A stretch of DNA of 64,000 bases from Microbacterium invictum (lineage in GTDB: Bacteria > Actinomycetota > Actinomycetes > Actinomycetales > Microbacteriaceae), in NCBI RefSeq assembly GCF_014197265.1, contig NZ_JACIFH010000001.1, forward strand, positions 2,480,001 through 2,544,000, written 5' to 3'. A program made the position numbers and the translations under genes. Under the pieces are notes generated by a model. The model saw nothing but the letters and a program-made list of their open reading frames with translations, was not told the origin of the DNA and did not search any database. Shown here one piece after another: positions 17,352 through 59,787 of this stretch. Numbering within the stretch: position 1 is the first letter of the stretch; each line of letters opens with the position of its first letter.

Positions 17352-18338
17352 CTACGGCCGCCCGCCACCACCCGGCCCGCCTCCGCCATCGGGCGCGCCG
17401 CCGGCCGCAGGCGTCGTGGTGGTGTCGACGCGCACGACCAGGGAGGCCGCATACCCGGCATCCACCCCGCCGGTGACCGTCGCCATCTGCAGCACCCCGC
17501 CGTCCTCGCCGAAGACGTTGTCCGACGTCAGCGTGATCTGCGAGAGGTTCCGCGCCGAACCGTCGTAGCCCGAGCCTGCGTACACATCACTGAGCATCGC
17601 TTCGGGGAAGGCCAGCTGCGACGTGGCGATCGCGCGCGTCGAGTCGGTGATATCGGCCGCGCTCGGATAGACCTCGAAGTGGATGTGCGTCCAGCGGCCC
17701 GTGTAGCAGCCGGGGACGATCGAGGTGAAGGTCACCTGTCCGTTCGCATCGGCGACCTGCACGCCCCGCAGATACGTCTCGTTCTCGACGCCGCTCGAGT
17801 ACATCGAGTACCGGCCCTGGGCGTCGCAGTGCCAGGCGTAGACGGCGACGCCCTGGAACGCGGCGTCGCCGTTGGCCATGTCGGTCACCCGCAGAGTGAA
17901 CGTCAACGGCACCCCGCCGGCGGTCGCGCCGCCGCCGAGACTCGACCGGATGTCGCCGCGCACGATGCCGGACTGCTCGAGCACGTCGGGTCCGTTCGAC
18001 CCGTCGCCCGGGTAGGGCCCGGCGGTCTCATCGGGAATCTCGCCGGCGGGCAGCTCTGTCACGGTCGTGGGGGTGGGGGTCGGGGTCGGTGCGGGTGTCG
18101 CGCTCGGTGACGCGGATACCGTGGGCGAAGGCGTCGACGATGCCTTGGGCGTGCAGGCGGCCAACGCCGCCGCCCCGGCGCCGATGCCGACCAGGCTGAG
18201 GATGCCGCGGCGGCTCACCAGCGTGCGCAGATCGAAGGCGGCGCCCTGATCGACGACTTCCTCGTCGACGCGATCGAGAAGGCGGCCCTCGTAGGCCGGT
18301 CCGTCCGGCGTCTGCTCGGGCTCGGGGATCCGGGTCAT
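17352..18338 (-). CDS. Exported intradiol ring-cleavage dioxygenase-like Tat lipoprotein
   Basis: 328 residues. The N-terminus has a twin-arginine SRRGIL (42-47), a hydrophobic stretch and a lipobox LAAC with C62, so the protein should be folded in the cytoplasm, exported by Tat and lipid-anchored. A Pro/Thr/Ser linker (about 64-95) leads to the intradiol dioxygenase domain. The four iron ligands are visible as Y177 (CDAQGRYSMY), Y212, H218 and H220 (PGCYTGRWTHIHF). The family cleaves catechols with iron(III). Its C-terminal tail is glycine-rich. Start ATG 18338 has a GAGGAG site. It is convergent with TetR (3 bp apart). Confidence 0.9.
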   Translation of the reverse strand: MTRIPEPEQTPDGPAYEGRLLDRVDEEVVDQGAAFDLRTLVSRRGILSLVGIGAGAAALAACTPKASSTPSPTVSASPSATPAPTPTPTPTTVTELPAGEIPDETAGPYPGDGSNGPDVLEQSGIVRGDIRSSLGGGATAGGVPLTFTLRVTDMANGDAAFQGVAVYAWHCDAQGRYSMYSSGVENETYLRGVQVADANGQVTFTSIVPGCYTGRWTHIHFEVYPSAADITDSTRAIATSQLAFPEAMLSDVYAGSGYDGSARNLSQITLTSDNVFGEDGGVLQMATVTGGVDAGYAASLVVRVDTTTTPAAGGAPDGGGGPGGGGRP

Positions 18339-18488
18339 GGGCGCTCCTCAGTCTCGGGGGACTTCCACTGTGCCGAACAAGTGCGTGCATCCACACGGTT
18401 CCGGCTATGGATTCGCGATGAGTCGTGCCCGGCGTCGGTCGGGATGACCACCGCGGCGGCGGCGTGCCGACGTGACTATTCTGATCGG

Positions 18489-20681
18489 ATGCCCTCACTC
18501 GGCGACATCGTCGCACCGCGCCGCATGGGAGTGGATTTCCGCTGGCTGCTCGCGTCGTCGTGGACCAGCAACGTCGGTGACGGCATCGCCCTGGCGGCCG
18601 CTCCCCTGCTGATCGCGTCGATGACCTCATCGCCCGTCCTGGTGGCGTCGGGGGCGATCCTGCAGTTCCTGCCGTGGCTGCTGTTCGGCCTGCACGCCGG
18701 CGCCGTGGCCGACCGCTTCGACCGGCGACGCATCATGATGCTCGCCAACGGCGCCCGCGCGGTCGTGGTGGCGGCACTCATCGTCTTCCTCGTCACGGGC
18801 GTCGCGAACATCGGGATCGTGCTCGCGGTCGCGTTCCTCTACGGCTGCGCAGAAGTGTTCGTCGACACAGCCGGCAGCGCCATGCTGCCGATGATCGTGA
18901 AGCCCGTCGACCTGGGCACCGGAAACGCGCGGCTGCAGGCCGGATTCCTGGTCGCCAACCAGTTCGCCGGCCCGCCGCTGGGCGCCTTCCTGTTCGCGCT
19001 GGGCAGCGCGTGGCCGTTCCTCGTGCAGGGCCTGTGCGTCGCGTTGGCCATCGTGCTGATCTCGCGGCTGACCCTGCCCATCGCACCCCCGGCGGCCCCG
19101 GCACCGCGCAAGCCGGTGCACACCGACATCGGCGAGGGCCTGCAGTGGTTGTGGCGCAATCCGCCGGTGCGCACCCTCGTGCTCATCATCCTGTGCTTCA
19201 ACATCACGTGGGCAGCTCCCTGGGGCGTGCTGGTGCTGTACGCGACCGAGCACCTCGGCATGGGACCGGTCGGCTTCGGCGCGCTCACCACGGCCTCGGC
19301 CCTGGGCGGCATGCTGGCGGTGCTGATCTTCGGCCGGCTGCAGCAGCGCGTGTCGTTCGCCACGCTCATGCGCGTATGCCTGTCGGCCGAGGTGGTCATG
19401 CACCTCTCGTTCGCCCTGACGACCACCGGGTGGGTGGCGCTGGTGATCATGTTCGGGTTCGGGCTCTACGCGTTCGTGTGGGGGACGATATCGACGACGG
19501 TGCGCCAGCGCCTGGTGCCGCAAGCGCTGCAGGGCCGGGTGGCATCGGTGAACATGGTCGGCGTATTCGGCGGGATGGTGATCGGCCAGGCGCTGGGCGG
19601 CGTCATCGCACAGACGTGGGGACTGACCGCGCCGTGGTGGTTCGCGTTCGCCGGCTCGGCGCTGACCCTCGCGCTCGTGTGGCGGCCCATCTCGCACATC
19701 GTGAACGCGCCACCGGCGATGGATAATGGACCGGTGACGGACGCCCCTGACTCGCTGCCCGGCTGGACCCACGTCTACTCCGGGAAGGTCCGCGACCTGT
19801 ACCGTCCGGCCGACCCTGAGGCCCCCGCCGACCGCATGCTCGTCGTCGCCAGCGACCGGGTCAGCGCGTTCGACTTCGTGCTCGAGCCCGCGATTCCCGA
19901 CAAGGGCACCCTGCTGACCACTCTCAGCCTGTGGTGGTTCGACCAGCTCTCCGGCGGCGACGGCGGCCGCCGCATCCCCAACCACCTGGCCGCGTCGCAC
20001 GAGCTGACGCTCGGAGACGACGGCATCCCGAACACCGCCGACGACCTCCGGTCGTTGATTCCGGATGCCGTGGCCGGACGCGCGATGCTCGTGCGGGCCC
20101 TCGACATGCAGCCGATCGAATGCGTCGTGCGCGGCTATCTCACCGGCTCGGGATGGGTCGAGTACCAGGACTCCGGCACCGTGTGCGGCATCGCCCTGCC
20201 GGCCGGGCTCGCGAACGGCGATCGACTGCCCGAGCCGATCTTCACCCCCGCGTTCAAGGCGCCGCTGGGTGAGCACGACGAGAACATCTCCTACGAGCGG
20301 ACCGTCGAGCTCGTCGGCGCCGACGTCGCCGCGCAGTTGCGCGACACCTCGCTCGAGATCTACACCCGTGCGGCCCGCATCGCCGAGGCGAAGGGCCTCA
20401 TCCTCGCCGACACCAAATTCGAGTTCGGCCTCGACGAGGCCGGCACCCTGACCCTCGCCGACGAAGTGCTCACGAGCGACTCGTCGCGGTACTGGGATGC
20501 CGAAGCGTGGCGCACCGGGACGACTCCATCCGCGCGCATGGCGAGCTTCGACAAGCAGCGCGTGCGCGACTGGCTCGCCGCGAACTGGGACAAGCAGGGC
20601 ACTCCGCCCGCACTGCCCGGCGCGGTGGTCGCTCAGACCACCGCGAAGTACCGCGAGCTGCTGCAGCGCCTCACCGCCTGA
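18489..20681 (+). CDS. MFS transporter reading in frame into SAICAR synthase (apparent MFS-PurC fusion)
   Basis: One uninterrupted frame of 730 residues. Residues 1-400 are an MFS_3/EntS-like exporter with about 12 membrane helices (VGDGIALAAAPLLIASMT, GAVADRFDRRRIMM). There is no stop after the last helix: it runs through a 15-residue link into a complete PurC domain from about residue 416. The ATG at 18489 follows a TATTCT box by 6 nt, giving a leaderless start. Either the fusion is real, with PurC tethered to the inner membrane face, or the transporter simply uses the purC stop while purC is also made separately from 19734. Misassembly is unlikely because both domains are intact in the same frame. 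Confidence 0.75.
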   Translation: MPSLGDIVAPRRMGVDFRWLLASSWTSNVGDGIALAAAPLLIASMTSSPVLVASGAILQFLPWLLFGLHAGAVADRFDRRRIMMLANGARAVVVAALIVFLVTGVANIGIVLAVAFLYGCAEVFVDTAGSAMLPMIVKPVDLGTGNARLQAGFLVANQFAGPPLGAFLFALGSAWPFLVQGLCVALAIVLISRLTLPIAPPAAPAPRKPVHTDIGEGLQWLWRNPPVRTLVLIILCFNITWAAPWGVLVLYATEHLGMGPVGFGALTTASALGGMLAVLIFGRLQQRVSFATLMRVCLSAEVVMHLSFALTTTGWVALVIMFGFGLYAFVWGTISTTVRQRLVPQALQGRVASVNMVGVFGGMVIGQALGGVIAQTWGLTAPWWFAFAGSALTLALVWRPISHIVNAPPAMDNGPVTDAPDSLPGWTHVYSGKVRDLYRPADPEAPADRMLVVASDRVSAFDFVLEPAIPDKGTLLTTLSLWWFDQLSGGDGGRRIPNHLAASHELTLGDDGIPNTADDLRSLIPDAVAGRAMLVRALDMQPIECVVRGYLTGSGWVEYQDSGTVCGIALPAGLANGDRLPEPIFTPAFKAPLGEHDENISYERTVELVGADVAAQLRDTSLEIYTRAARIAEAKGLILADTKFEFGLDEAGTLTLADEVLTSDSSRYWDAEAWRTGTTPSARMASFDKQRVRDWLAANWDKQGTPPALPGAVVAQTTAKYRELLQRLTA
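19722..19727 (+). promoter_or_regulatory. Candidate internal -10 box for a separate leaderless purC transcript
   Basis: GATAAT, 5 of 6 matches to the sigma-70 -10 consensus, lies inside the end of the transporter frame exactly 6 nt before the in-frame GTG at 19734. This is the same spacing as at other leaderless genes in the window. No convincing -35 is seen. Confidence 0.5.
19734..20681 (+). CDS. purC: Phosphoribosylaminoimidazole-succinocarboxamide synthase (SAICAR synthase)
   Basis: 315 residues from the internal GTG. It joins CAIR and aspartate with ATP in purine synthesis. Family signatures are YSGKVRDLY near the N-terminus, VVASDRVSAFDFVL, ECVVRGYLTGSGW and ILADTKFEFGLDE (SAICAR synthetase signature 2). 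It has the longer eukaryote/actinobacterial-type length of about 300 residues. A GATAAT box 6 nt upstream suggests separate leaderless expression. The same frame continues upstream into an MFS transporter without a stop, described separately. Confidence 0.93.
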   Translation: MTDAPDSLPGWTHVYSGKVRDLYRPADPEAPADRMLVVASDRVSAFDFVLEPAIPDKGTLLTTLSLWWFDQLSGGDGGRRIPNHLAASHELTLGDDGIPNTADDLRSLIPDAVAGRAMLVRALDMQPIECVVRGYLTGSGWVEYQDSGTVCGIALPAGLANGDRLPEPIFTPAFKAPLGEHDENISYERTVELVGADVAAQLRDTSLEIYTRAARIAEAKGLILADTKFEFGLDEAGTLTLADEVLTSDSSRYWDAEAWRTGTTPSARMASFDKQRVRDWLAANWDKQGTPPALPGAVVAQTTAKYRELLQRLTA

Positions 20682-20830
20682 ACCGCGTTCGCGAGGCGGC
20701 GCCCGGCGCACTGCCGCCGGCGACCTCACGCGCGCCGCACGGGCTGACGGAATGCCCGAGTGGCATCCCCGGTTCTCAGCGTTCTCCCAGATATCGTGAC
20801 CTCAGCACACGACCCGTGAGGAGCACCCGC

Positions 20831-22177
20831 ATGCCCATCTGGACCCTTCACGGCGACGGCCGTCACATCGAGCGCGGCGCCGTCGTCAAGCCCGGCGAGC
20901 GCCTGAGCTGGCCGGGAACCATCGCGATCGGCGCACAGCACGTCGTCGCGATGTTCGGCGCCACCTTCCTCGTGCCGATCCTGACGGGGTTCCCGGTCTC
21001 GACGACCCTGCTGTTCTCGGGTCTGGGCACCATCCTGTTCCTGCTTCTGACCCGCAACCGGCTGCCCAGCTACCTCGGCTCGTCCTTCGCGTTCATCGCA
21101 CCGATCCTCGCCGCCGGCCCCGGCGGCGGTGCGCCGCTGCAGACCGGCGAGCAGATCTCGCAGGCACTGCTGGGCGTCTTCGTCGCCGGTGTGCTGCTGG
21201 CCGGCGTCGGCTTCCTCGTGCAGGCGACCGGCACGGGCTGGATCGAGAAGCTCATGCCGCCGGTCGTCTCGGGCGCCATCGTCGCCCTCATCGGCCTGAA
21301 CCTGGCCCCCGTTGCGTGGCAGAACTTCCAGGTCGACGCGCTCCTGGCCACGATCACCCTCGTCGCCTGCATCCTGTTCTCGGTGCTGTTCCGCGGATTC
21401 CTGGGCCGCGTCTCGATCTTCCTCGGCGTCTTCGTGGGCTACCTCGTGGCCATTCTCATGGGGAAGGTCGACTTCTCGGGCGTCGAGTCCGCCGCCTGGT
21501 TCGGTCTGCCCGAGTTCCATCTGCCGGCGTTCGGCGACCCGGTCGCGTGGGGCCTGCTGCCGATGTTCCTGCCGGTCGTGCTCGTGCTCATCGCCGAGAA
21601 CGTCGGCCACGTGCGCGGTGTCGCGACGATGACCGAAGACCCGTCGATCAACACGCACACCGGACGCGCCCTGGTCGCGGACGGTCTGGCCACCACCATC
21701 GCCGGCGCGTTCGGCGGTTCGGGAACCACCACCTACGGCGAGAACATCGGCGTCATGGCCGCGACGCGGGTGTACTCGACCGCGGCGTACTGGGTCGCCG
21801 GCGCGATCGCGATCCTGCTCGCGTTCTCGCCCAAGATCGGCGCCGTCATCTTCGCCCTCCCCGCCGGCGTGCTCGGCGGTGTCACCACCGCCCTGTACGG
21901 CTTGATCGGCGTCATCGGGATCAAGATCTGGGTCGACAACCAGGTCGACTTCTCGCGTCCGGTCAACCAGTACACGGTCGCCGTATCGTTCGTGATCGCC
22001 ATCGCAGGCTTCACCATGACGTTCGACCAGCTGCAGTTCGGCGGCATCGTGCTCGGCACCTTCGCCGCGCTGGCGATCTACCACGGCGGCAACGCGATCG
22101 CCCGCGCACGCAAGACGGGAGCCGACGACGGTGGCCCGATCGTGCCGATCGGACAGCTGGGCGGCGACCCGCAGTAG
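20831..22177 (+). CDS. NCS2-family uracil/xanthine permease
   Basis: 448 residues with about 12-14 membrane helices. NCS2 signatures include PSYLGSSFAFIAPILA, PVVLVLIAENVGHVRGV (the conserved helix-8 glutamate) and AGAFGGSGTTTYGENIGVM. It imports a nucleobase with protons; the GSGTTTYGENIG form leans towards the uracil (UraA-like) side rather than purines, but this is not decisive. The ATG at 20831 has a GAGGAG site. Lying 150 bp after purC, it is consistent with nucleotide metabolism. Confidence 0.9.
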   Translation: MPIWTLHGDGRHIERGAVVKPGERLSWPGTIAIGAQHVVAMFGATFLVPILTGFPVSTTLLFSGLGTILFLLLTRNRLPSYLGSSFAFIAPILAAGPGGGAPLQTGEQISQALLGVFVAGVLLAGVGFLVQATGTGWIEKLMPPVVSGAIVALIGLNLAPVAWQNFQVDALLATITLVACILFSVLFRGFLGRVSIFLGVFVGYLVAILMGKVDFSGVESAAWFGLPEFHLPAFGDPVAWGLLPMFLPVVLVLIAENVGHVRGVATMTEDPSINTHTGRALVADGLATTIAGAFGGSGTTTYGENIGVMAATRVYSTAAYWVAGAIAILLAFSPKIGAVIFALPAGVLGGVTTALYGLIGVIGIKIWVDNQVDFSRPVNQYTVAVSFVIAIAGFTMTFDQLQFGGIVLGTFAALAIYHGGNAIARARKTGADDGGPIVPIGQLGGDPQ

Positions 22178-46270: not shown

Positions 46271-48600
<2,330 letters not shown>

Positions 48601-48604
<4 letters not shown>

Positions 48605-48735
48605 GTGATGCCGACGAGTACAGCGGCTTTGCCGACAAGCGCGCGAGGCGCATGAAGGTCATCGCGTGGACCGTCATCATCGCGCTGATCCTCGTGGGCG
48701 GCGGCGCGACGGTCCTCTCCCTCATCTTCGGCTGA
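48601..48735 (+). CDS. Small 44-residue single-pass membrane protein coupled to purL
   Basis: 44 residues from a GTG overlapping the purL stop (GTGA). A charged N-terminus ([15 protein letters not shown]) precedes one hydrophobic helix ([20 protein letters not shown]). The tight coupling argues that it is translated. Function unknown; a peptide tethering or regulating PurL is conceivable. Confidence 0.7.
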
Positions 48736-48884
48736 CGGCTGCAGTGCGGGGTGGATGCCGCTTCTCCTCGCCCCTTTGCCAAGTGCGTCGCCGCGAGTTT
48801 GAGCCTCGCAGGCAGCGGGGCATCGCCCCGCACGGCGCATCCGACATAGGCGCGGACGCGCTGACCATCCCACACAAAGAGAAA
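48736..48884. other. Intergenic region after the purL operon with a GC-rich hairpin
   Basis: No gene is seen between 48736 and 49104. A 7-bp perfect stem GCGGGGC/GCCCCGC with a 3-nt loop lies at 48815-48831 but lacks a U-run on either strand; it may still terminate purL transcripts. Confidence 0.4.
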
Positions 48885-48912
48885 GCCCCGACTGTTACCA
48901 CACAGCCGGGGC
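48885..48912 (-). terminator. Probable Rho-independent terminator of the PD-(D/E)XK-type gene
   Basis: GCCCCG-A-CTGT and ACAG-C-CGGGGC form an 11-position stem with one mismatch and a 6-nt loop. On the minus strand it is followed by TTTCTCTTTG. It lies 190 bp after the stop at 49105. Confidence 0.6.
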
Positions 48913-49104
48913 GAGACGAATGAGAAGTTCGCCTATCCCCACCAGCGTACCGCTCGCACCTGGGAGGTGGCTCGGCGTCGGGTGGCTGGATCCGAGTGGT
49001 TGCGCAGCCGGACGCGGAGGGACCGTCTTTCGGGTCCGTCTGCTCCAGTCGTCGGCCTGTATGTGTGGCCTTCGTCGGGTCGGTCCTGGCGCTCCCGCGG
49101 ACGG

Positions 49105-50466
49105 TCAGGGTGTTGCGGGGCGCTTCGGTAGCTCGTCGTCTTGGGAGGAGAGCGCAGCCGACGGGATGTCCTTGGACACCGCCTGGTCCACCTCGACCTC
49201 TTCGGGCTTGCGCAGCCGAGGCGGCGCGGCAGACCAATCCTTAAGTCGCTGGCCAACAAGGTCGTAGGACTCGAGGATCGCGTCCATCACTGAGTCGATG
49301 AATCCGGATCTACCGGCGAGCCGCGCGCCGCCCATCTTCCCGATGTAAGTGATGGTGAACGACTTGATCTCCTTTGTGGGATCAACGACAAGGACTCCGG
49401 GATCCTCGCGGGCGGTCTTCAGAAGCTCAGCGGTGCCGCCTCGTTGACGCACGGCGAATGCCTCCAGCCGGAGCGTGTCTGGCGCATCCTTCAGTTGACG
49501 AAGTAGCCAGTTGACCCTCGTGGTGGGTCGTCCCTCGGCGGGAGCGCTTGTGGAGAAGGAGCAGGTGATCTGCGCGGCGCGGATATCGACAGTCACGGTC
49601 AAAGGGGACACCGCGTTTGGAATCCGGATTGCGCCGGACATCTTGCCGTCGTTGACCAGCATGTCTGTGACGGCCGCAATTCGGAGCGCCGGGTTGGCGA
49701 CCTCCGCCTTCGACAAGACTTGAGTCACGTCAGCGCCAAGTCGCTGGCCGAGTTTGAGCGCACCGTAGCGCAGCAGTGCATCAAATCGGCCGGCCACCTG
49801 CGAGGCGTCCTTATCGCTCTTCCGGAGAGTGCCACTCGACACGGACTCCCGAACGGGGACCCAGCTCGGACCCATGTCCGTGAACTCGACGGCACCTGAC
49901 TTCGGGTGCTCGAGGTACCGGATCAACTCGCCCAGGATCCATGCCTGGTCAGGGTCAGCTACTCCACGAAATTCCTTCTGCATGATCGCGGCCGTCAGCA
50001 CTTCTGTCCACGACAGGTGGTGCATGGCGGCGTACTTGGACTTCCGCTTATCGACGACGGTCGGGTGCGTGCCAGCCGCCGGCGGGATCTCGTTCGAGAT
50101 CGTCAGCAACGCGTCGAAGCGGTGCTCCCGCGCGACGTCCAGATAGTTCTCCAGCTGCTCCCGCTGTAGCTCGTTGTTGCCTGTCTTGACCTCGACGAGC
50201 GCGGTCCAGACCTTGCTGCCACGCTTTACGCGGATGAGGCCGTCGGGGAACACCTTCCTGTCGCCCAAGAGGAACGGCACCTCGATGAACGTCTCGAGCA
50301 CCCCCGCTGGCGCACCCATACGACCCGTTATCACCCGGCCGTACTCCTTCACCGAACTCATAACCGCAAGGAGAGCGGATGTCGCTCGTCGCTCTTGCTC
50401 CTCGGCGCCGTTGATCCCAGACGTTGGGATCAGGCGCGCGGTGTTCCAAGAGTTCTCTTCTGCCAT
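49105..50466 (-). CDS. PD-(D/E)XK nuclease-fold protein of unknown function
   Basis: 453 residues. The N-terminal third has the PD-(D/E)XK pattern: D75 in FPDG, E92-V-K94 in ALVEVKTG, and glutamines in ELQREQLENYLDVARE after it. The rest (about 140-453) is not recognised, with a possible beta-rich segment at 260-370 and a charged tail. The ATG at 50466 is followed by MAEENSWNTARLIPTSG. Composition is less GC-rich than its neighbours. It lies next to a broken HNH gene, so a defence or nuclease role is suspected but unproven; no methylase or helicase is adjacent. Confidence 0.65.
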   Translation of the reverse strand: MAEENSWNTARLIPTSGINGAEEQERRATSALLAVMSSVKEYGRVITGRMGAPAGVLETFIEVPFLLGDRKVFPDGLIRVKRGSKVWTALVEVKTGNNELQREQLENYLDVAREHRFDALLTISNEIPPAAGTHPTVVDKRKSKYAAMHHLSWTEVLTAAIMQKEFRGVADPDQAWILGELIRYLEHPKSGAVEFTDMGPSWVPVRESVSSGTLRKSDKDASQVAGRFDALLRYGALKLGQRLGADVTQVLSKAEVANPALRIAAVTDMLVNDGKMSGAIRIPNAVSPLTVTVDIRAAQITCSFSTSAPAEGRPTTRVNWLLRQLKDAPDTLRLEAFAVRQRGGTAELLKTAREDPGVLVVDPTKEIKSFTITYIGKMGGARLAGRSGFIDSVMDAILESYDLVGQRLKDWSAAPPRLRKPEEVEVDQAVSKDIPSAALSSQDDELPKRPATP

Positions 50467-50675
50467 TTCAACTCCGTCATTGACACGATCTCTCCAGGAA
50501 CGCTAGCGGGAAACCCGTATCGCCCTGAGCATTTCCACTCGCAGCGCGTTGCAGTAACGACTCAGCACTTCGCGCCGTACACCTTGGAGCATCGAGGCGC
50601 ACAGCGCGTCGGAGACCGCCGCCTGCACGATCCGGCGATGACACACACACCGGGACCCGCAGCCAGACCGCAGGC

Positions 50676-50960
50676 GTGACCGAGAGCGTATTCCGGAAGG
50701 CAGACGGCCGGGGGATCCCCGAGCTCAGCCGCGCGACGCTCCGTTTGAACGACGGGTCCACGCTGGAAGCCCGGGTGCCCCGTCCCGTTGGGGACGAGAT
50801 CACCTTCCCCGCCCTTGTCGGTCCCGTTCGAATTCATCGACCTCGGCATCTGTCCGATCTGTCTCGCGCCCGGTCCGACCAGTCGCGAGCATGTCCCGCC
50901 CCACTCGGTCGGCGGGAACACCCCCGTCGTGACCCCGCTTGAGACCATCACGGGATTTCA
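50676..50960 (+). pseudogene. Frameshifted and truncated HNH-endonuclease-like gene
   Basis: From GTG 50676 the frame encodes about 50 residues (ATLRLNDGSTLEARVPRP), then a one-base surplus in the CCC run at 50823-50825 moves the continuation to the next frame. That frame reads FIDLGICPICLAPGPTSREH and VPPHSVGGN, the CxxC/EHVPP motif of HNH nucleases. It ends without the rest of the domain. The preceding frame ends at 50679, overlapping the GTG. Confidence 0.6.
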
Positions 50961-51069
50961 CGCCCTAGAACGACCCGCGAAATCCGACGTTGATAGCCGC
51001 GCGTATCGGGACCCGCCTCCGCGCAGCTCCATAGCGTGCGATGTCGGGGGTGTGCCCGATGATGAGCGA

Positions 51070-51450
51070 ATGACCGCGCACGCGCACTCGATTCCGTTCA
51101 CGATCGACTACATCGAGATCTCAGTCACCGACATGCAGGCCGCTCGCGACTTCTATCGCGCCGCGTTCGGATGGTCATTCGCCATATACGGCGACCAATA
51201 CTCTGGCATCCGCACCGCGGCTGAATCGGGAAGCGACGGCGAAGAAGCCGGCGGGCTGCTCCTCGCAGAGACAGTCACCCGAGGTGGCCCCCTTGTTCTC
51301 CTCTACGCCGATGACATCGAGGACGCCGTCGAGCGCGTCACCCGGGCCGGCGGCACTGTCGTGAACGGTCCCTATGAATTTCCCGGCGGCCGCCGCTTCC
51401 ACTTCCTCGACCCGAGCGGCAACGAACTCGGCGTGTGGTCGGCCTCCTAG
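51070..51450 (+). CDS. VOC-family (glyoxalase/bleomycin-resistance fold) protein
   Basis: 126 residues with two beta-alpha-beta-beta-beta modules. It starts IDYIEISVTDMQAARDFYRAAFGW and ends FHFLDPSGNELGVWS, both typical of VOC proteins. No strong ribosome site is seen before the ATG at 51070. Members bind metals or small ligands; the function here is unknown. Confidence 0.85.
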   Translation: MTAHAHSIPFTIDYIEISVTDMQAARDFYRAAFGWSFAIYGDQYSGIRTAAESGSDGEEAGGLLLAETVTRGGPLVLLYADDIEDAVERVTRAGGTVVNGPYEFPGGRRFHFLDPSGNELGVWSAS

Positions 51451-51600
51451 CGGTCGAGCGTTTCACTCGATGGACGGCGTGGAGTTCGCTGGCAGTAGCT
51501 GTCGCTTCCCTTGGCGCGGCCGTCGCGGCGCTCATTGTGGCGCGATAGTCGACCGTGTTGCGGACGTCCGTGTCCCGCGGGCTGATGTCGTGCCGCGGGA

Positions 51601-52227
51601 TTAGCGCAGGATGCCGCGTTGTCTGGCTGCGGATACCGCTGCGGTGCGTGAGGTGACGGCGAGCTTGGTGAAGATGTGGGCGAGGTGGGATTTGACGGTG
51701 GTCTCGCTGACGAATAGTTCTGTTGCGATGTCGGTGTTGGAATGGCCGGCTGCGACGAGCTCGAGTACTTGTATCTCGCGACTGCTGAGGTTCGCTTGGG
51801 GTGCTCGCATGCGGTCTAAGAGTCTCGAGGCGATGACGGGTGCGAGGGCGCTTTCGCCTGCGGCGGCGGCGCGGACGGCTGCTGCGAGCTCGTGGGGTGG
51901 GGCATCCTTGAGGAGGTAGCCGCTGGCGCCGGCTTCCACGGCGCCGAGAATGTCGGCATCCGTATCGTAGTTGGTCAGTACGAGGACATAAGGGGCCGCG
52001 TCGAGGGCACGGATACGCCGGGTGGCGTCGGCTCCGGTGGCTGTGGCTTGCGCGCCGAACTGGAGATCGATCAGTACGACGTCGGGGTTGCTGTGCTCTG
52101 CGGCGGACACCGCTTCGTCGGGTGTGGCAGCTTCCGCGATGACGTCTATGTCCCCCTCGAGGGCGAAGAGAGCCACCAGTCCCGCGCGGACGATGGGGTG
52201 GTCGTCGGCGATGAGAAGCCGGATCAT
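51601..52227 (-). CDS. NarL/LuxR-type response regulator
   Basis: 208 residues: receiver domain (1-125; phosphorylation site D54 in VVLIDLQFG) and LuxR helix-turn-helix (about 145-205, LSSREIQVLELVAAGHSNTD). Its ATG overlaps the kinase stop by 4 bp. The ABC transporter genes divergent from the kinase are its likely targets. The receiver has a longer loop after D54 (GAQATATGAD). Confidence 0.93.
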   Translation of the reverse strand: MIRLLIADDHPIVRAGLVALFALEGDIDVIAEAATPDEAVSAAEHSNPDVVLIDLQFGAQATATGADATRRIRALDAAPYVLVLTNYDTDADILGAVEAGASGYLLKDAPPHELAAAVRAAAAGESALAPVIASRLLDRMRAPQANLSSREIQVLELVAAGHSNTDIATELFVSETTVKSHLAHIFTKLAVTSRTAAVSAARQRGILR

Positions 52228-53411
52228 GTCGTCTGCTCCAGGGTGAGCTCGATGGTCAGCTGTGTGCCTTCGCCGGGCTGCGTGTCTACGACGAGGCTGC
52301 CACCGAGTTGTTCTGCTCGTTCGCGGGTTGCCTGGAGCCCGAATGAATCGGAGCGCCCGCGCGATTCGATGACTGCCAGGTGAGGCTCGAAGCCTTTGCC
52401 GTCGTCGGCGATGGTGAACTGCAGCCGCTCGTGATCGGCGGCGAGAGTGATCGTCGCGGTGGTGGCTTGTGCGTGCTGGATGACGTTGGCGATGGCTCCC
52501 TGCGCGATCCGCAGCAGCGCCGTCTGGACGTGCATCGGTAGTTCGAGTGTGTCGGATACACGCACGTTGACGTGGAGGCCTTGCGCAGCCCATTGAGAGT
52601 CGGCGAGCCTCCGCAGCGCTCCGCCGAGGCCGCGGTCGTCGAGGTCGGGCGGGGTGAGTTCGCGGATGAACCGGCGTGCATCAGCAAGATTGCTGGCCGC
52701 GGTGTCTCGGGCAAGCCGAATGTGTTCGGCCCCAGGGCGTTCGGGGTCGGCCTTCTCGGCGGCGTAGAGCAGCATCTGGATGCTGGACAGGCCTTGGGCG
52801 AGGGTGTCGTGGATTTCGCGAGCCAGCCGGGCGCGTTCGGCGAGGACTCCGGACTCGTGTTCGGTCGCCGCGAGCTGGCCTCTGGTGGCGAGTAGTTCGC
52901 GCATGAGGACTTCGCGTTGCTCCGCCTCGCGGGCCAGAGCTTGGTAGCCGAGACCGATCAGAAGGGCGACACCCGCGCCGACCAACGGCCCGATGACTCC
53001 GCCGAGACTCCATCCGCTGTGGATGCCCAGCGCACAGATGGCGGTCACGGTAGCGACGACGATCGCGGCAGCGCCCCACCACGGGCCGAGGAGATTGAGG
53101 TAGAGGAAGAACAACGGGAAGACGAGGTACGCAGCTTCGGGTGTCAGCCAGAGGAGGATTACCCACTCCAGACTGAGCGTCGCCAACCACAGCAGGCGCA
53201 GGACGCGACCACGGTGACGTGTGGTCCTGGTCTTCACCGCTCCGATCCCGTAGGTGACGAGAATCACCAGGGTGAGGACGATCGCGGCGACGCTACTCTC
53301 CGTTGGTGAGATCACCGCGCGGACGATGACCAGAACGGCGAGAGCGGCGAAAAGGACATGCAGCCCGGTGCGAAGACCCACGAATACCGGGGTGAGCGCG
53401 GTGTGGGGCAT
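52224..53411 (-). CDS. Membrane sensor histidine kinase (HisKA_3 type)
   Basis: 395 residues. An N-terminal module of about six membrane helices with little external sequence (9-155) suggests intramembrane sensing. HisKA_3 follows, with H201 in LAREIHDTLAQGLSSIQ, then an HATPase with IADDGKGFEP and FGLQATRERAEQLGGSL. The ATG at 53411 lies 7 nt after a TAAGAT box (leaderless); three further in-frame ATGs upstream were set aside for that reason. Paired with the overlapping response regulator and divergent from an ABC transporter. Confidence 0.88.
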   Translation of the reverse strand: MPHTALTPVFVGLRTGLHVLFAALAVLVIVRAVISPTESSVAAIVLTLVILVTYGIGAVKTRTTRHRGRVLRLLWLATLSLEWVILLWLTPEAAYLVFPLFFLYLNLLGPWWGAAAIVVATVTAICALGIHSGWSLGGVIGPLVGAGVALLIGLGYQALAREAEQREVLMRELLATRGQLAATEHESGVLAERARLAREIHDTLAQGLSSIQMLLYAAEKADPERPGAEHIRLARDTAASNLADARRFIRELTPPDLDDRGLGGALRRLADSQWAAQGLHVNVRVSDTLELPMHVQTALLRIAQGAIANVIQHAQATTATITLAADHERLQFTIADDGKGFEPHLAVIESRGRSDSFGLQATRERAEQLGGSLVVDTQPGEGTQLTIELTLEQTT

Positions 53412-53574
53412 GGACCGAATCTTACGCATCGCCATGACTGCGGCATCGTCCGAAAGGACGACTTCCCCAACCACCCTTCAGTCGGCAAAGCCTGTGCCGG
53501 CGGCCGATGAGATGGCACGTCGAGAAAGGAAAAGTGGTACGTGTCCCCAGGTCGGGTGACCGGAAAGGAATCTC

Positions 53575-54645
53575 ATGTTCGTCGCGCTCCGCGACCTACG
53601 CTTCGCCCGCGGCCGATTCGTCTTGATCGGGTCGGTCGTCGCCCTCATCACCGTTCTCGTCGGGTTCCTCAGCGGCCTCACCGGTGGCCTTGCCACCCAG
53701 AACATCTCCGCCGTCCTGTCGATTGCTGCAGATCGGGTTGTGTTCTCTGCGCCCACCATGGACGGCGCGGCTGCAAGCTTCTCCGATTCCACCATCACCG
53801 AACAGCAGACCACTGCCTGGAACACCGCCGCCGGCGTCACCTCAGCAGAACCGATCGGGATCAGCCAGACTCGGGCAGAGGCTGGCGACGCCCGAATCGC
53901 GATAGCCATCTTCGGCGTGCAGCCCGGGTTCAACACCACCGCTCCCTCTCAGGGCGGCCGGGTGAGTCTTTCCGCTCCCGCAGCCAAAGACCTCGACATC
54001 ACCACCGGCGATGACGTGACGATCGCAGGGACCACGTACACGGTCGAAACGATCGCTGGTGATGCCTGGTACAGCCACACCCCCGTAGTGGAGATGACCC
54101 TTTCCGATTGGCAGGCCTACTCGGCAGCCACCGGCAACCCCGACGCTTACGCGACGGTCCTCGCCGTCACCGGGTCGCCGGACTGGGAGATCACAGACAC
54201 CGCGAACTCCACCGTCTCCCAGACCGTTCTCGGGTCGTTGACCGCGCTCAGCGCGTTCCGCTCCGAGATCGGGTCGCTTCTGCTGATGGTCAGCATGCTG
54301 TTCGGGATCTCCGGCCTGGTCATCGGCGCGTTCTTCACCGTCTGGACCATGCAACGCAAGGGCGACATCGCAGTACTCAAAGCACTCGGCGCCAGCACCT
54401 CCTCACTGGTCCGGGACGCACTGGGTCAGGCGCTGATCGTTCTGCTCCTGGGGATAGGAGTCGGGTTGGGACTGGTCACCCTCTTCGGCGCCCTCGCCGG
54501 CACCGCCCTACCGTTCCTCCTGAACCCCCTCACGACACTGCTGCCCGGCGCGATCATGATCACGCTCGGCCTCGCTGGAGCCGCATTCGCGCTCCGCTCT
54601 GTCACATCCGCCGACCCCCTCACCGCCCTCGGGAGCAACCGATGA
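53575..54645 (+). CDS. ABC transporter permease of the FtsX/MacB (DevC) type
   Basis: 356 residues. One N-terminal membrane helix (about 15-40), a large extracellular MacB-periplasmic-core-like domain (about 45-220) and three C-terminal helices with RKGDIAVLKALGASTSSLVRD between them. A GGAAAGG site precedes the ATG. The stop overlaps the ATPase start by 4 bp. Such systems export or sense antimicrobials or lipids; the flanking kinase/regulator pair fits a stress-response module. Confidence 0.9.
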   Translation: MFVALRDLRFARGRFVLIGSVVALITVLVGFLSGLTGGLATQNISAVLSIAADRVVFSAPTMDGAAASFSDSTITEQQTTAWNTAAGVTSAEPIGISQTRAEAGDARIAIAIFGVQPGFNTTAPSQGGRVSLSAPAAKDLDITTGDDVTIAGTTYTVETIAGDAWYSHTPVVEMTLSDWQAYSAATGNPDAYATVLAVTGSPDWEITDTANSTVSQTVLGSLTALSAFRSEIGSLLLMVSMLFGISGLVIGAFFTVWTMQRKGDIAVLKALGASTSSLVRDALGQALIVLLLGIGVGLGLVTLFGALAGTALPFLLNPLTTLLPGAIMITLGLAGAAFALRSVTSADPLTALGSNR

Positions 54646-55337
54646 TCCGCCTCGACAACATCACCCTCACCTTCCCCGACGGCGACAATCGCGTCACCGC
54701 TGTCAACCAGGTCAGCCTCACCGCTCACCCAGGAACCGTTACCGGCATCACCGGCCCCAGCGGCTCCGGGAAATCCAGCCTCCTCGCCGTCGCCGCGACC
54801 CTCCTCCGCCCCGACTCCGGGCAGGTCATCATCGACGACGTCGATGCCACCCTCCTCGCCCCCGGCGAAGCGACTGAGACCCGCCGGAACAAGATCGGCA
54901 TCGTTTTCCAGCAGCCCAACCTCATCCCGTCCCTGACCGCGCTCGAGCAGCTGTCCGTCATGAACGAGCTCGGCGCACGCCACTCCCGACGGAACCGGGG
55001 CAACGCGGCCAAACGAGCCGAGACGCTTCTGGATGCGGTTGGACTCGCCGACCACCGAGACAAACGACCCCATCAGCTCTCCGGAGGTCAACGCCAGCGA
55101 GTGAACATCGCCCGCGCCCTGATGAACGACCCCAGCGCGCTCCTCGTCGACGAACCCACCAGTGCCCTTGACCAGGAACGCGGCGCCAGCATCATCCAGC
55201 TCATCCTCCGCCTTACCGACGAGCTGAACACCTCGACGCTGCTCGTCACCCACGATCTCGTCCACCTGCCCCGCATGCACGGTGTCGTCAACCTCGTCGA
55301 CGGCGCACTCGTCGACACCGTCTCTGCAGCCGCGTAA
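54642..55337 (+). CDS. ABC transporter ATP-binding protein (MacB/LolD type)
   Basis: 231 residues. Walker A GPSGSGKSS (39-47), Q-loop FQQPNLIPSL, signature LSGGQRQR, Walker B ALLVDEPTSALD and switch histidine VTHD are all present, so it should be active. It powers the overlapping FtsX-like permease. Confidence 0.94.
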   Translation: MIRLDNITLTFPDGDNRVTAVNQVSLTAHPGTVTGITGPSGSGKSSLLAVAATLLRPDSGQVIIDDVDATLLAPGEATETRRNKIGIVFQQPNLIPSLTALEQLSVMNELGARHSRRNRGNAAKRAETLLDAVGLADHRDKRPHQLSGGQRQRVNIARALMNDPSALLVDEPTSALDQERGASIIQLILRLTDELNTSTLLVTHDLVHLPRMHGVVNLVDGALVDTVSAAA

Positions 55338-55533
55338 CCCCCCAGTCGAGCTGTGGACGAAAGCCACCCCGACGGGTCACGGCACCCGGGTGCTCCAGAC
55401 GGAGGTCGATACGGGCTGTCGACGGTGGCGCTCACCGAGCCGATCATCACCAATCGGTATGCGAGTGCCCGTTCAGGGAACCTCCTGCGGCGCTCGTCGA
55501 CCTTCAACACCGCGTATCGGATCAGGTCAGTCG
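55338..55533. other. Intergenic region without a recognised gene
   Basis: The minus strand of 55350-55530 has coding-like stretches but no supported start, family or ribosome site. No clear terminator was found after the ABC operon. Between 55663 and 55915 nothing else was recognised. Confidence 0.4.
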
Positions 55534-55662
55534 CTAGTCGCTCGCGCTCCCACCTGCCTGGTCGTCGAGCTCCTTGAGACGCCTGAGCTTCGACCACGGC
55601 ACGAAAGCAACCCAGGCGATCGAAGCAATCGAGGCGCCCATGATCATTGACGCAATGTCCAT
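55534..55662 (-). CDS. Small 42-residue membrane protein
   Basis: 42 residues with one hydrophobic segment (MIMGASIASIAWVAFVPW) and a basic/acidic tail KLRRLKELDDQ. TAGCCT lies exactly 6 nt before the ATG (leaderless). Short, but promoter placement, composition and the membrane-plus-basic topology argue for a real gene. Function unknown. Confidence 0.65.
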   Translation of the reverse strand: MDIASMIMGASIASIAWVAFVPWSKLRRLKELDDQAGGSASD

Positions 55663-55915
55663 GACTGGAGGCTACGCACCGCGCGGACCGTAAGCCTCCC
55701 TCTCGAGGCGGAGATCGCACCAATCTGACGAGCGCTGGCCGACCGATAGCGAACGCTTACGTCTCCCAGCGTGCGCTGCGCGAATAGGGACCGTCCGATC
55801 CACTGGCGTCGTCGACTAGATGCGCGCGTAAACTGGTCGCGCGCCGTCGGATCTCATGGTCTGGTTGGCGCTCGAACAAGGCGGTCACTATGAAAGCTCG
55901 TACCGATATCCTCGC

Positions 55916-56380
55916 GTGAGCGACATTCCCCGGCTCGTCGCGTGGCGCCGTCAGCTTCTCGACGCGCACGATCGGCTTCGCCTCGCACTCGCTGCAGCGC
56001 AAGAGGCAGCACGCGCCAGTGAGGACATCCCAGACGCGTCGCGAGATCTGTTGCTCTTCTGCCACGGCTTCTGCGCGGCTCTCGATGGGCATCACCGCGG
56101 TGAGGATGCGCTGCTGTTCCCCGCCGTCGTCACACAACACCCTGACGCCGCACGCATCGTCACCAAGCTCCGGCAGGATCACGACATGATGGCGACTCTC
56201 CTCGCTCGATTCGACGTGGTGGTGCGCTCGGCTGAGCCGCCCACGGCGCTCGCGCAGCATTTGCAGGGCCTCGCAGCGATCATGGAGTCGCATTTCCGAT
56301 TTGAAGAGCGCGAACTGGAGCCACTTCTGGATCAACTCGAGCTTCACGCGGACCCTGAAGAGGTCATCGGACCCCTGTGA
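55916..56380 (+). CDS. Hemerythrin HHE-domain protein
   Basis: 154 residues, four-helix bundle. Iron-ligand candidates are H in LLDAHDRLR, HHRGEDALLF, RQDHDMM and ESHFRFEERELEP. These proteins bind a di-iron centre for oxygen, NO or redox sensing. The GTG at 55916 gives the usual N-terminus; an in-frame ATG at 55856 would add 20 less convincing residues. Confidence 0.85.
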   Translation: MSDIPRLVAWRRQLLDAHDRLRLALAAAQEAARASEDIPDASRDLLLFCHGFCAALDGHHRGEDALLFPAVVTQHPDAARIVTKLRQDHDMMATLLARFDVVVRSAEPPTALAQHLQGLAAIMESHFRFEERELEPLLDQLELHADPEEVIGPL

Positions 56381-56500
56381 TCCACACGCTCTCGGCGGCA
56401 AGACTCCCGAAGGGACGTCCGCAAGGGGATGGCTGTTTTCGGACGATCGCTGTCGCACCCGCCTGTATCGAAGGTGCACACGCGCCCGCAGGATGTAGGC

Positions 56501-57139
56501 ATGCGCATCGCAGACTTCCCCGTGCTCGATACTCCTGCTGCCCGGGGTGCCCTCGACCTCGCCACGCAGTACCAGTCCCCCGCAATCACGGCTCACGCGC
56601 TGCGCTCCTGGCTCTGGGCCGAGGCCTTCGCGCAGGTCGACGGCATCACCGACATCGACCACGAGCTGCTGTACGTGTCGGCCGTCCTGCACGACATCGG
56701 CACTGTGGCGGAGTTCGATAACCACCGGATCTCCTACGAGCACGCCGGTGGGCACGTCGGTGTCGCGCTTACAGCGGGAGCAGGCTGGCCCGCGCACCGG
56801 CGCGATCGAGTGCTCGAGGTGATCGTGCGACACAACTGGACGAGTGTCGATCCCGCGTTGGACGCCGAGGGCTACCTACTCGAGATCGCCACAGGACTGG
56901 ACATCTCCGGCGCGAGGCCGGATGCTCTGCCGGAGGACTTCCGGCGCGAGGTGCTCGCTGCCCACCCCCGAGGAACGATCGCCGCGGAGTTCGGCTCATG
57001 CGTCAGCGACCAGGCAACGCGCAAGCCCGATACGGCCGCGAAGCGACTCGTCGATGGCGGCCTCATCGACAAGCTCGCGGCCAACCCCCTCGAACGTCTG
57101 GGCGGACTCGAGCAGCATCAGAACAAGCACGGACGGTGA
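56501..57139 (+). CDS. HD-domain phosphohydrolase-like protein (cyanamide-hydratase-like)
   Basis: 212 residues. The HD metal site is visible as H32 (ITAHALRSW), H64-D65 (VLHDIG) and downstream histidines (H75, H81, RHNW). The spacing and the opening FPVLDTPAARGALDLA resemble the cyanamide-hydratase-like HD group. Substrate unknown. The ATG at 56501 is preferred to one 24 codons upstream on homology. Confidence 0.85.
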   Translation: MRIADFPVLDTPAARGALDLATQYQSPAITAHALRSWLWAEAFAQVDGITDIDHELLYVSAVLHDIGTVAEFDNHRISYEHAGGHVGVALTAGAGWPAHRRDRVLEVIVRHNWTSVDPALDAEGYLLEIATGLDISGARPDALPEDFRREVLAAHPRGTIAAEFGSCVSDQATRKPDTAAKRLVDGGLIDKLAANPLERLGGLEQHQNKHGR

Positions 57140-57210
57140 GCGGAACTTGCGAGCAACGCGCAGTGACGGATCGCGGGTGAGCAGGAGCCGCCGTGATCTA
57201 GGTTGGTCGA

Positions 57211-57498
57211 ATGACCGAAGTCACGCTCACCGGCAAGCTGGTCTGCGCCTCGCCCTCGGAAGCCGAGGTCATCGAGGACTTACTTCCTCAGCATGTTCTG
57301 TTGACCCGTGCCGAACCAGGCTGCCTCCTCTTCGAGGTCACGCGCCGCGGGTCGTCGCTCGTGTGGGATGTCACCGAGCGCTTCGGCAACGAAGACGCCT
57401 TCCACGCGCACCAGGCGCGAGTAGCGGAGAGTACGTGGGGAGCGGAGACCGCAGCGATCAAGCGGGACTACACCGTCACCGGTCTCACCGCTGAATAA
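57211..57498 (+). CDS. Antibiotic-biosynthesis monooxygenase (ABM) domain protein
   Basis: 95 residues, a ferredoxin-like dimeric barrel, with LTRAEPGCLLFEVTR and FHAHQARV typical of ABM/YgiN proteins. These act as cofactor-free oxygenases or in quinone and small-molecule handling. A TAGGTT box lies 6 nt before the ATG (leaderless). Confidence 0.88.
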   Translation: MTEVTLTGKLVCASPSEAEVIEDLLPQHVLLTRAEPGCLLFEVTRRGSSLVWDVTERFGNEDAFHAHQARVAESTWGAETAAIKRDYTVTGLTAE

Positions 57499-57587
57499 GC
57501 GAAGCAACGCGCGGATCGGTGCCACTTGCGGGCATTGCTCGTACGGGGATCGCCAGGTCGGCTTGCCCCGCATGGTCGTCATGCCGG

Positions 57588-57821
57588 TCACGGCATCCGC
57601 GACAGCGCGGCCTCCATCGCCACAACGCCTTCTTCGCGCCCTTGTTCGATGAGGCGCTCGGCGTCACGGATGAGCGCGGCGATTTCGGGCGATGTGGACG
57701 GCCACTCGAGCGCCCGAGAGGCGCTGTCGAGCAATCCCCTCACGTAGAGGCTGAAGGCGAAGCCTCCCTCCGCGGGAACGATGTGCCTAAAGCCGGAGAC
57801 CGCCTCGATCGCCGCGTCAGG
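57588..57821 (-). pseudogene. 5'-truncated coding fragment of unknown family
   Basis: A minus-strand frame of about 77 codons ends at TGA 57588-57590 and has coding character (GGFAFSLYVRGLLDSASRAL, IRDAERLIEQGREEGVVAME). No ATG, GTG or TTG start exists between it and an upstream in-frame stop near the TetR start. It is probably the tail of a lost gene. The family was not recognised. Confidence 0.5.
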
Positions 57822-57852
57822 TGGACATAGACTAATTGATGGGTCAGAATAT

Positions 57853-57866
57853 TGAACATGCGTTCA
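57853..57866. promoter_or_regulatory. Operator-like palindrome over the tetR start codon
   Basis: TGAACATGCGTTCA has inverted 5-bp arms TGAAC/GTTCA around a 4-bp centre and contains the ATG at 57858. Position suggests TetR autorepression. Confidence 0.6.
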
Positions 57867-58475
57867 GTACTGGATGGTAGAGACATCACGGCACGGGGCC
57901 GCATTCTCGAAGCGGCACTCGAGCTGTTCAGTGCGAACGGCTTCCGCTCGACGACAGTGCGGGCAATCGCGGACGCGGCGGGAGTCAGCGCGGGGCTCGT
58001 CCTCCACCACTTCGGTAGTAAGGAAAACCTGCGACGCGAGTGCGATGAACGGGTGGTTCACTTTATTGGGGCCAAAGATGCGAGTGACGCGGCGGACGTA
58101 ATCGCGCATGCAGCGAGCCAGTTTGGTCCCTATATCGCCCGCATGCTTTACGAAGCTGGCGAGGCCAGCGACAGTTTGTTTGACCGCCTCCTGGAATCGG
58201 CCCGCAACGCACTGGATGTGGGAGTGGATTCAGGAACCATGACCGCGTCGAGCGACGTCGATGCGCAAGCTGCGGCATTACTGACCCTGGGAGTCGCCCC
58301 GTTCTTTCTCGCAGCTCAACTGGCTCGTTGGGCGGGGGGTGACGCTCAGGCGGGAATCGCTCGCGTGGCAGGCCCGATCGCCGACATCTATGCGCGAGGA
58401 CTCTTCGTGGACACCTCACACAGGATGGACCCCCCACACCGGGTGGATGCTTCGCAGCAAAGGCAAGATCAGTGA
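57858..58475 (+). CDS. TetR-family regulator coupled to a glycosyltransferase
   Basis: 205 residues, helix-turn-helix (about 10-58, FRSTTVRAIADAAGVSAGLV) and a helical ligand domain. The ATG at 57858 is preferred; a TTG two codons earlier is possible. The stop overlaps the glycosyltransferase GTG by 4 bp, so both are made together. It probably senses the compound that the transferase modifies. The tail (DTSHRMDPPHRVDASQQRQ) is polar and unstructured. Confidence 0.9.
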   Translation: MRSVLDGRDITARGRILEAALELFSANGFRSTTVRAIADAAGVSAGLVLHHFGSKENLRRECDERVVHFIGAKDASDAADVIAHAASQFGPYIARMLYEAGEASDSLFDRLLESARNALDVGVDSGTMTASSDVDAQAAALLTLGVAPFFLAAQLARWAGGDAQAGIARVAGPIADIYARGLFVDTSHRMDPPHRVDASQQRQDQ

Positions 58476-59668
58476 GACTTCTGCTCGCCACCGCCGGTTC
58501 ACGAGGTGATGTCGAGCCGTTCGCTGCTCTCGCTCGACGAGCAATGTTCGAAGGGCATGAGGTGCGTCTGGCCGCGCCGGACAGCTCCGGGGTTGGCCTG
58601 TCGGGCATCGACGTCGTCAGCATGGGTGTCGACTACACACGCATGATCGAAGAGCAAGGCGTGTCGGCCTGGGCCGCCATCCGGTCGTTCCGGGAAGTCG
58701 TTCGCCCAACCATGCACGCAGTGATCGTTCAGACCGCGCGTGCTGCGATGGAGTATCGACCCGACGTACTGATTTCACACCCGAAAGTGCTTTCCGCGCC
58801 GCTCGTCTGCGAGGCGCTGGGCATACCCCATGTCCTCGTCGAGACCGTGCCGTCCATGACACCCACCAGGGCCTTCCCCGCCGCCGGCACGACAACCCGC
58901 AATCTCGGAGCCCTCAACCGGCTCACCTATCGAGCGGCCGGACTGAGCGCCCGGATGTTCCGTTCTGACCTCACCGAAGTGGCTGGACTCGTCGGCGCAA
59001 CGCGGCGCCGCCCCGCGCCTCCCGCCGCCACGCTGCTGCCGATCAGCCCGGCGATCCTCGAAAGGCCAGAAGACTGGCCCGAATCGGTGCACCTGACAGG
59101 ACCCTGGCGCACCGAGTCGGCTGATTCCACCCTGCGCGAGGACGTTGCCTCATTCATCGCAGAAGGACGGTTCGTGTACGCGGGATTCGGATCGATGGCG
59201 GCGGGGGATCCATCCATCCGCGGCAGAGAAGTACTCCAGGGCATTCGTGACCGCGGCTCGCGGGCGCTGATCGCCACAGGACTCGGCGGACTGCGGATCG
59301 GCGACGATCTGCTCGGCGACGACGTCCTGGTCGTTCCATCGGTAGACCACGATCTGGTACTACCCCACGCCGAAGCCGCCATCCACCACGGCGGGATCGG
59401 AACGCTTCAGGCCGCAACTCGCGCGGGAGCCGTCTCCATCGTGGTCCCCTTCATCGCCGACCAACCGTTCTGGGGAGCCCGACTGCACGAAAGAGGCCTG
59501 GCGCCCGCACCAATCCCCCGCAGACGTCTGAACGCTCACCACGTCGGCGAAGCGCTGACAGACTCGACGAAGTATCGACACGCAGTCAATGTCGCCGCCG
59601 AGGTGATGTCGAACGAGCACGGGACCGCCGTCGCGATGGAAATTATCCGTCAACAGGCGGATACCTGA
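58472..59668 (+). CDS. GT1-family (MGT/UDP-glucuronosyl-type) glycosyltransferase
   Basis: 398 residues with the GT-B fold. The N-terminal RLLLATAGSRGDVEPFAALA and the C-terminal sugar-nucleotide site HHGGIGTLQAATRAG with PFIADQPFWGARL are family marks. It transfers a sugar to a small lipophilic acceptor such as a sterol, macrolide or flavonoid. With a coupled TetR, it resembles an inducible drug-inactivating module; glycolipid synthesis is the alternative. Confidence 0.9.
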   Translation: MRLLLATAGSRGDVEPFAALARRAMFEGHEVRLAAPDSSGVGLSGIDVVSMGVDYTRMIEEQGVSAWAAIRSFREVVRPTMHAVIVQTARAAMEYRPDVLISHPKVLSAPLVCEALGIPHVLVETVPSMTPTRAFPAAGTTTRNLGALNRLTYRAAGLSARMFRSDLTEVAGLVGATRRRPAPPAATLLPISPAILERPEDWPESVHLTGPWRTESADSTLREDVASFIAEGRFVYAGFGSMAAGDPSIRGREVLQGIRDRGSRALIATGLGGLRIGDDLLGDDVLVVPSVDHDLVLPHAEAAIHHGGIGTLQAATRAGAVSIVVPFIADQPFWGARLHERGLAPAPIPRRRLNAHHVGEALTDSTKYRHAVNVAAEVMSNEHGTAVAMEIIRQQADT

Positions 59669-59787
59669 TCACCCACCCTGCGCTCGTTGCACTCCGTCGA
59701 GCCGAACACGCCGGGCGCTCGCGCGGGAACGGATGCCGGGGATGACGGGCCCGCGACGATGCGGCGCCCGGCCATTAGGCTGAACGC

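Follow-up and report, generated by a model that had tools for sequence, protein, structure and literature searches.

One of the closest described parallels to the gene analyzed here is the LplT–Aas pair (NF006386), a substrate-handing pair whose MFS transporter and enzyme form a single ORF in some bacteria, according to a published study (PMC11416262). The same study describes the fused proteins as functionally uncharacterized and reports that, when Aas was joined artificially to the C-terminal end of LplT, itself an MFS protein, in E. coli, expression of LplT was disrupted (PMC11416262); an enzyme in this position can thus be detrimental to an MFS protein. A second class of relevant systems is the leaderless genes which, according to published work, make up more than 20 % of the genes in Actinobacteria and are marked by a −10-like box located approximately 12 bp upstream (PMC3160421). 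Here we describe a locus within a 64,000-nucleotide stretch of the Microbacterium invictum genome (the window hereafter; contig NZ_JACIFH010000001.1, positions 2,480,001 to 2,544,000) in which an MFS exporter gene runs without a stop codon into purC, the gene for SAICAR synthase.

A single open frame with two complete domains

The MFS–PurC frame extends from an ATG to a TGA on the plus strand (18489..20681) and consists of 730 stop-free codons plus the TGA. The longest mechanical frame starts at GTG 18381 (766 codons); relatives start at the equivalent of ATG 18489. Pfam searches placed MFS_1 (122 bits, cut-off 33.4) and MFS_3 (111.9 bits, cut-off 27) between residues 9 and 396 and detected SAICAR_synt above its cut-off over residues 429–701, that is, the two domain matches are approximately 30 residues apart. 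The exporter domain (MFS_1/MFS_3) itself covers about residues 1–405 (18489..19703, plus strand) and is connected to PurC by a linker of approximately 20 residues, including ten linker codons (NAPPAMDNGP; 19704..19733, plus strand) in which the MFS tail meets the purC promoter. The purC gene follows from its GTG (19734..20681, plus strand; 315 codons plus stop). A peptide of the fusion would cross the stretch ISHIVNAPPAMDNGPVTDAPDSLPGW. The initial annotation had proposed one uninterrupted frame encoding a complete MFS transporter and a complete PurC, and this is borne out by the 730 stop-free codons together with the Pfam and NCBIfam matches.

The fused gene is preceded by a divergent gene with a Dioxygenase_C domain (Pfam; 17352..18338, minus strand), which directly adjoins purC in some relatives, and is followed, outside the fusion itself, by a gene of the Xan_ur_permease family (20831..22177, plus strand) that comes after purC here and in relatives. 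The G+C content of the region is about 70 %; elsewhere in the window, it is approximately 0.65 at 48001–60000, compared with 0.67–0.73 in the other 4-kb blocks.

The PurC half can be assigned by sequence as a SAICAR synthase, given that residues 422–729 match a curated equivalog model for PurC (NCBIfam NF010568; 383.9 bits, cut-off 251) and that the residues conserved in the family are kept. Its relatives by sequence in the PDB are 3r9r and 6yvq. Comparison with 80 free PurCs revealed a departure at only one of the 150 columns conserved at 97.5 % or more, namely R276 (20559–20561) in place of I. No second purC was found in the genome, a single contig of 3,580,260 bases (completeness 100, contamination 0.27), when either the entire fusion or PurC by itself served as the query; if the locus were annotated as one 730-residue protein, the sole free PurC detected in the genome would therefore go unnoticed.

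The MFS half did not reach the curated cut-off of any named exporter among the NCBIfam equivalog and exception models, with scores of 83.3 bits for EntS (cut-off 324) and 53.9 bits for Tap (cut-off 625) and values far below the cut-offs for the Mef and Tet models, and no solved structure matched the exporter by sequence. Nothing was found that would link this exporter to purines, so that the earlier proposal of a coupling between the handling of purine intermediates and export is not supported. Of 205 alignment columns at which 28 free MFS proteins all agree, the window protein differs at five (T120C, T197P, P198I, W283R and E285Q), and because of these changes its activity is not assured. A simple hydropathy count produced overlapping segments, and structure prediction of the fusion from a 7-row alignment gave a mean pLDDT of 37.2 and a pTM of 0.23, values too low for a usable model. 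Proteins of the MFS family typically have an even number of helices (12) and a C-terminus in the cytoplasm; if the exporter follows this topology, the PurC part of the fusion would be expected on the cytoplasmic side of the membrane. The sequence TATTCT at 18477..18482 (plus strand), six bases before the MFS ATG, is a candidate −10 box. Inspection by eye of 28 upstream regions showed −10-like boxes of the TAGTCT type at about the same place before the MFS gene in many relatives, and we propose that the MFS gene may have a leaderless start behind TATTCT.

Fused and separate genes in relatives

A search of a protein collection seeded with residues 340–560 detected a second fusion, P0002, a protein of 728 amino acids with MFS and SAICAR domains encoded on an 8.8-kb contig. 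P0002 is 89 % identical to the window protein and has the same junction, with no indel in the linker. The MFS parts share 357 of 393 aligned residues (90.8 %) and the PurC parts 270 of 306 (88.2 %). These two proteins are the only ones that combine both domains among the best 120 of 1345 matches in the protein collection. Among the genomes compared, which include one per species, a DNA probe spanning the junction was matched throughout in this genome only, among the matches listed for 366 genus genomes (17 of which had no match to the probe), and the full 730 residues of the protein were matched in this genome only, among the matches listed for 299 genomes of the family.

The DNA is high in G+C, and a sequencing or assembly artefact, in which the stop codon of the MFS gene was lost or two loci were joined, might be suspected on these grounds. 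Such an error is extremely improbable given that the genome is a single contig with the completeness and contamination values cited above, and we reject it because P0002, with its identical junction, comes from another contig and another source. The presence of two separate genes in relatives likewise points to a lineage-specific fusion rather than to an error. The least conserved part of the two fusions is the linker, with 15 of 19 residues identical, and this would suit a scenario in which cleavage of the finished fusion, within the linker or close to it, yields two ordinary proteins; we consider such processing very unlikely.

Apart from P0002, the two genes were found separately in the relatives examined. 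Among the matches listed for 198 genus genomes, with the full-length fusion and PurC as separate queries, those to the MFS gene and those to purC (the latter present in 192) lie at separate places except in this genome. The flanks (up to 1.5 kb) of the 29 closest MFS loci contain no purC, and conversely, this MFS gene is not found near purC at any of 109 purC loci (L039–L147), six of which have less than 1.3 kb of upstream DNA and some of which probably represent the same genome twice. The expectation that relatives would conserve the joint frame thus holds for P0002, whereas the other relatives examined carry purC and the MFS gene apart.

At a G+C content of about 70 %, a long open frame leading into purC means little by itself and is not unusual: at least 415 in-frame open codons precede the gene in 10 of the 80 named free purC loci (74 of them labelled Microbacterium, and 76 with at least 1.3 kb of upstream sequence). 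No Pfam domains were detected in these frames in any of the six tested among the ten, unlike the window, and we accordingly rejected a mere chance open frame as an explanation of the observed arrangement. What sets the window apart is that the frame preceding purC belongs to a genuine gene on the same strand, which has a full domain and lacks a stop codon. As a side observation, one of the six loci tested (L092:3805–6918) shows a 1037-codon mechanical frame that runs into purC antisense to a BCCT transporter gene, a potential trap for gene callers. Within the ten linker codons of the fusion, only 1 of the 90 possible single-base changes gives a stop codon, so that two lineages would be expected to keep the frame open even without selection; taken by itself, the open frame therefore says little about selection.

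These observations bear on the possibility that the fusion is a selected bifunctional protein, in which the exporter would hold SAICAR synthase at the membrane and move an intermediate of the purine pathway or a related compound, coupling synthesis with transport. That two lineages carry the fusion (89 % identity), and that its domains are both intact and its linker is free of indels, is compatible with this possibility, as is the precedent of LplT–Aas, and both fusions have R at PurC position 276, which is I in 80 of 80 free PurCs. This shared residue may reflect a single event if both lineages inherited the fusion from one ancestor, and it could also predate the fusion. Conversely, the ease with which the linker stays open, the occurrence of the domain combination in only two proteins among the 120 matches listed, the separation of the two genes in the other relatives examined and an origin by insertion (see below) all argue against a selected bifunctional protein, and we regard it as quite unlikely.

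The gene order in relatives suggests how the fusion might have emerged. A dioxygenase gene lies directly upstream of purC, without the MFS gene, in 3 of the 80 named loci (L069, L119 and L143) and in 4 of the 29 further loci (L039, L050, L057 and L060), although some of these loci probably come from the same genome twice. In Microbacterium saccharophilum (L069), the order dioxygenase, purC, permease, LacI, bgl and ABCp matches the window except for the absent MFS gene (we take the genes beyond the permease to be LacI, a glucosidase, bgl, and ABCp), and the permease that follows purC is 82 % identical to its counterpart in the window. With this order at hand, insertion of the MFS gene is the most likely course of events. 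Relatives of the Xan_ur_permease gene are present in 64 of the 80 named purC loci and come right after purC in, for example, L057, L069 and L101. In the window, the segment at 18396..18421 (strand not assigned) is a probable left remnant of the ancestral gap between the dioxygenase gene and purC. Of its 26 bases, 20 match the gap that precedes purC in L068, a value reached by 0 of 1000 shuffles, and 16 match the corresponding gap in L069, reached by 15 of 1000 shuffles; the segment was picked by eye, so the shuffles do not constitute an independent test. Taking the synteny as a guide, the dioxygenase–purC gap appears to be the place where the exporter gene was inserted.

The right-hand side of the putative insertion can be examined by comparison with free MFS genes, 28 of 29 of which have frames of 412–433 codons that end in a stop after a variable tail; in the remaining one (L029), the frame is interrupted early. 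The 28 free proteins align through ISHIVNA-P-A-D and then vary, and at this point the window protein enters DNGPVTD, encoded by GAT AAT GGA CCG GTG ACG GAC. Because the homology of the free MFS proteins ends at IVNA-P-A-D, the fusion would have removed unconserved tail residues only. As judged from this alignment, the join of the MFS gene to purC is at the −10 box of purC.

With regard to the source of the inserted gene, the genomes of the genus set with the most similar purC (G133 and G081, 82–83 % identity) have MFS proteins that are only 73 % identical to the window exporter, and in another genome (G148) the MFS protein is 79 % and PurC 75 % identical; there are thus hints that the exporter derives from another Microbacterium lineage. 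In one relative (L009), the MFS gene is adjoined by rsmA (identified by Pfam RrnaAD), and no MFS copy is present at the rsmA site of the M. invictum genome. The top-scoring MFS relative at the DNA level (L149, from G308, a genome that is 76 % complete) is split into two reading frames.

A probable purC promoter inside the fused frame

The conserved −10 box of purC, GATAAT (19722..19727, plus strand), is now located within coding sequence. It begins 12 bases before GTG 19734, with six bases between box and start. Upstream of free purC, GATAAT is found in 56 of the 80 named loci, and the distance between box and start is six bases in 76 of the 80; a −10-like hexamer is present in all 80, a count that is descriptive because the list of variants was made after looking. 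The background frequency of GATAAT in these loci is only about 0.04 per kb per strand, and given this rarity, its place upstream of purC is not due to chance. The first base of the box is G, so it is without the first T of TANNNT. A promoter scan detected no sigma-70-type sites with both hexamers, and no terminator-like site was found on the plus strand of 18300–20900.

If the −10-box rule for leaderless genes can be extended to Microbacterium by analogy, transcription from GATAAT would yield a leaderless purC mRNA. Conservation of the box and its spacing ahead of free purC genes makes it probable that such an mRNA still gives rise to the free 315-residue PurC. The dual output envisaged in the initial annotation, with purC also expressed from a leaderless GTG behind GATAAT, is thus well supported by the conservation of box and spacing at free purC and by the frame shared with P0002. 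The latter is known as a protein only, and its residues DNG suggest that the box is present in the P0002 gene as well.

A conserved −10 box and a start codon that belong to purC itself would also agree with the 315-residue PurC being the only product made in a meaningful amount, the MFS promoter being silent or weak and the fusion existing on paper, and the changes at 5 of 205 otherwise invariant columns of the MFS half point in the same direction. The MFS half is nevertheless uninterrupted and is slightly more similar between the two fusions than PurC (90.8 % vs 88.2 %), so that it appears to be maintained, and it has its own candidate −10 box. Considering both sides, we find it doubtful that PurC is the sole product.

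The reading that we favor overall, with a probability of about 0.65, is a two-product locus created by insertion. Under this scenario, the common ancestor of two Microbacterium-type lineages would have undergone insertion of an MFS gene, together with its own promoter, into the space that separates the dioxygenase gene from purC. The right-hand junction of the insertion would coincide with the −10 box of purC, so that only the variable C-terminal tail and the stop codon of the exporter would have been taken away, and the frames of the exporter and purC would have been left in register by chance. The message from the MFS promoter would then give rise to an exporter of 730 residues that carries SAICAR synthase at its C-terminal end, since there is no stop before PurC and full translation must yield the fusion. 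The retained GATAAT would direct a leaderless purC message that starts at GTG 19734 and encodes the ordinary 315-residue enzyme. Either product may be active, presumably without a coupled function. Should both products be kept by selection, the locus would represent a same-frame gene within a gene that supplies membrane-anchored and soluble pools of SAICAR synthase, which seems unlikely to us.

The two-product locus would be of more general relevance in that the likely state before the event is preserved in relatives, offering a view of how a new domain combination could arise when a gene is inserted beside a leaderless one. A leaderless gene has its −10 box and its start codon within a dozen bases, which allows a gene upstream to become fused to it without shutting it off. 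We predict that leaderless genes readily become fusion partners and that the annotation of actinobacterial genomes may miss double products made in the same frame.

Comparison with known fusions and leaderless genes

Transporter–enzyme fusions and PurD–PurC fusions are already known, and the MFS–PurC combination appears to be an addition to them: among the titles and abstract openings listed for the open-licence literature, we found no report of an MFS–PurC fusion or of a leaderless purC in Microbacterium. Like the window protein, LplT–Aas joins an MFS transporter to an enzyme in a single ORF. The MFS half of the window protein matches the LplT–Aas model only weakly (34.4 bits, cut-off 1221), and the functional logic differs: LplT and Aas act on the same lipid, whereas the enzyme in the window belongs to purine synthesis and has no known substrate in common with the exporter.

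PurD–PurC fusions, which are common among the protein-collection matches listed (for example, under names from Brevibacterium, Subtercola and Micrococcus), resemble the window protein in that PurC is C-terminal, after approximately 20 to 65 residues (P0004, P0007 and P0019), but the partner is another purine enzyme rather than a membrane protein. By analogy, PurC would seem to tolerate a partner at its N-terminus. A MerR–PurC protein of 401 amino acids (P0081) is another case of an upstream gene joined in frame to PurC, although here the partner is a MerR regulator, and the protein was found on one 4.3-kb contig. In a further protein from the same collection (P0003, 464 amino acids), a shortened PurC seems, by eye, to be followed by a second PurC.

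Finally, the locus resembles the leaderless genes of Actinobacteria in that the purC box is located six bases before the GTG, which would place the start of transcription at the start codon or immediately beside it. It differs from them in that the purC promoter is embedded in the coding sequence of an upstream gene that is fused to purC and shares its frame.
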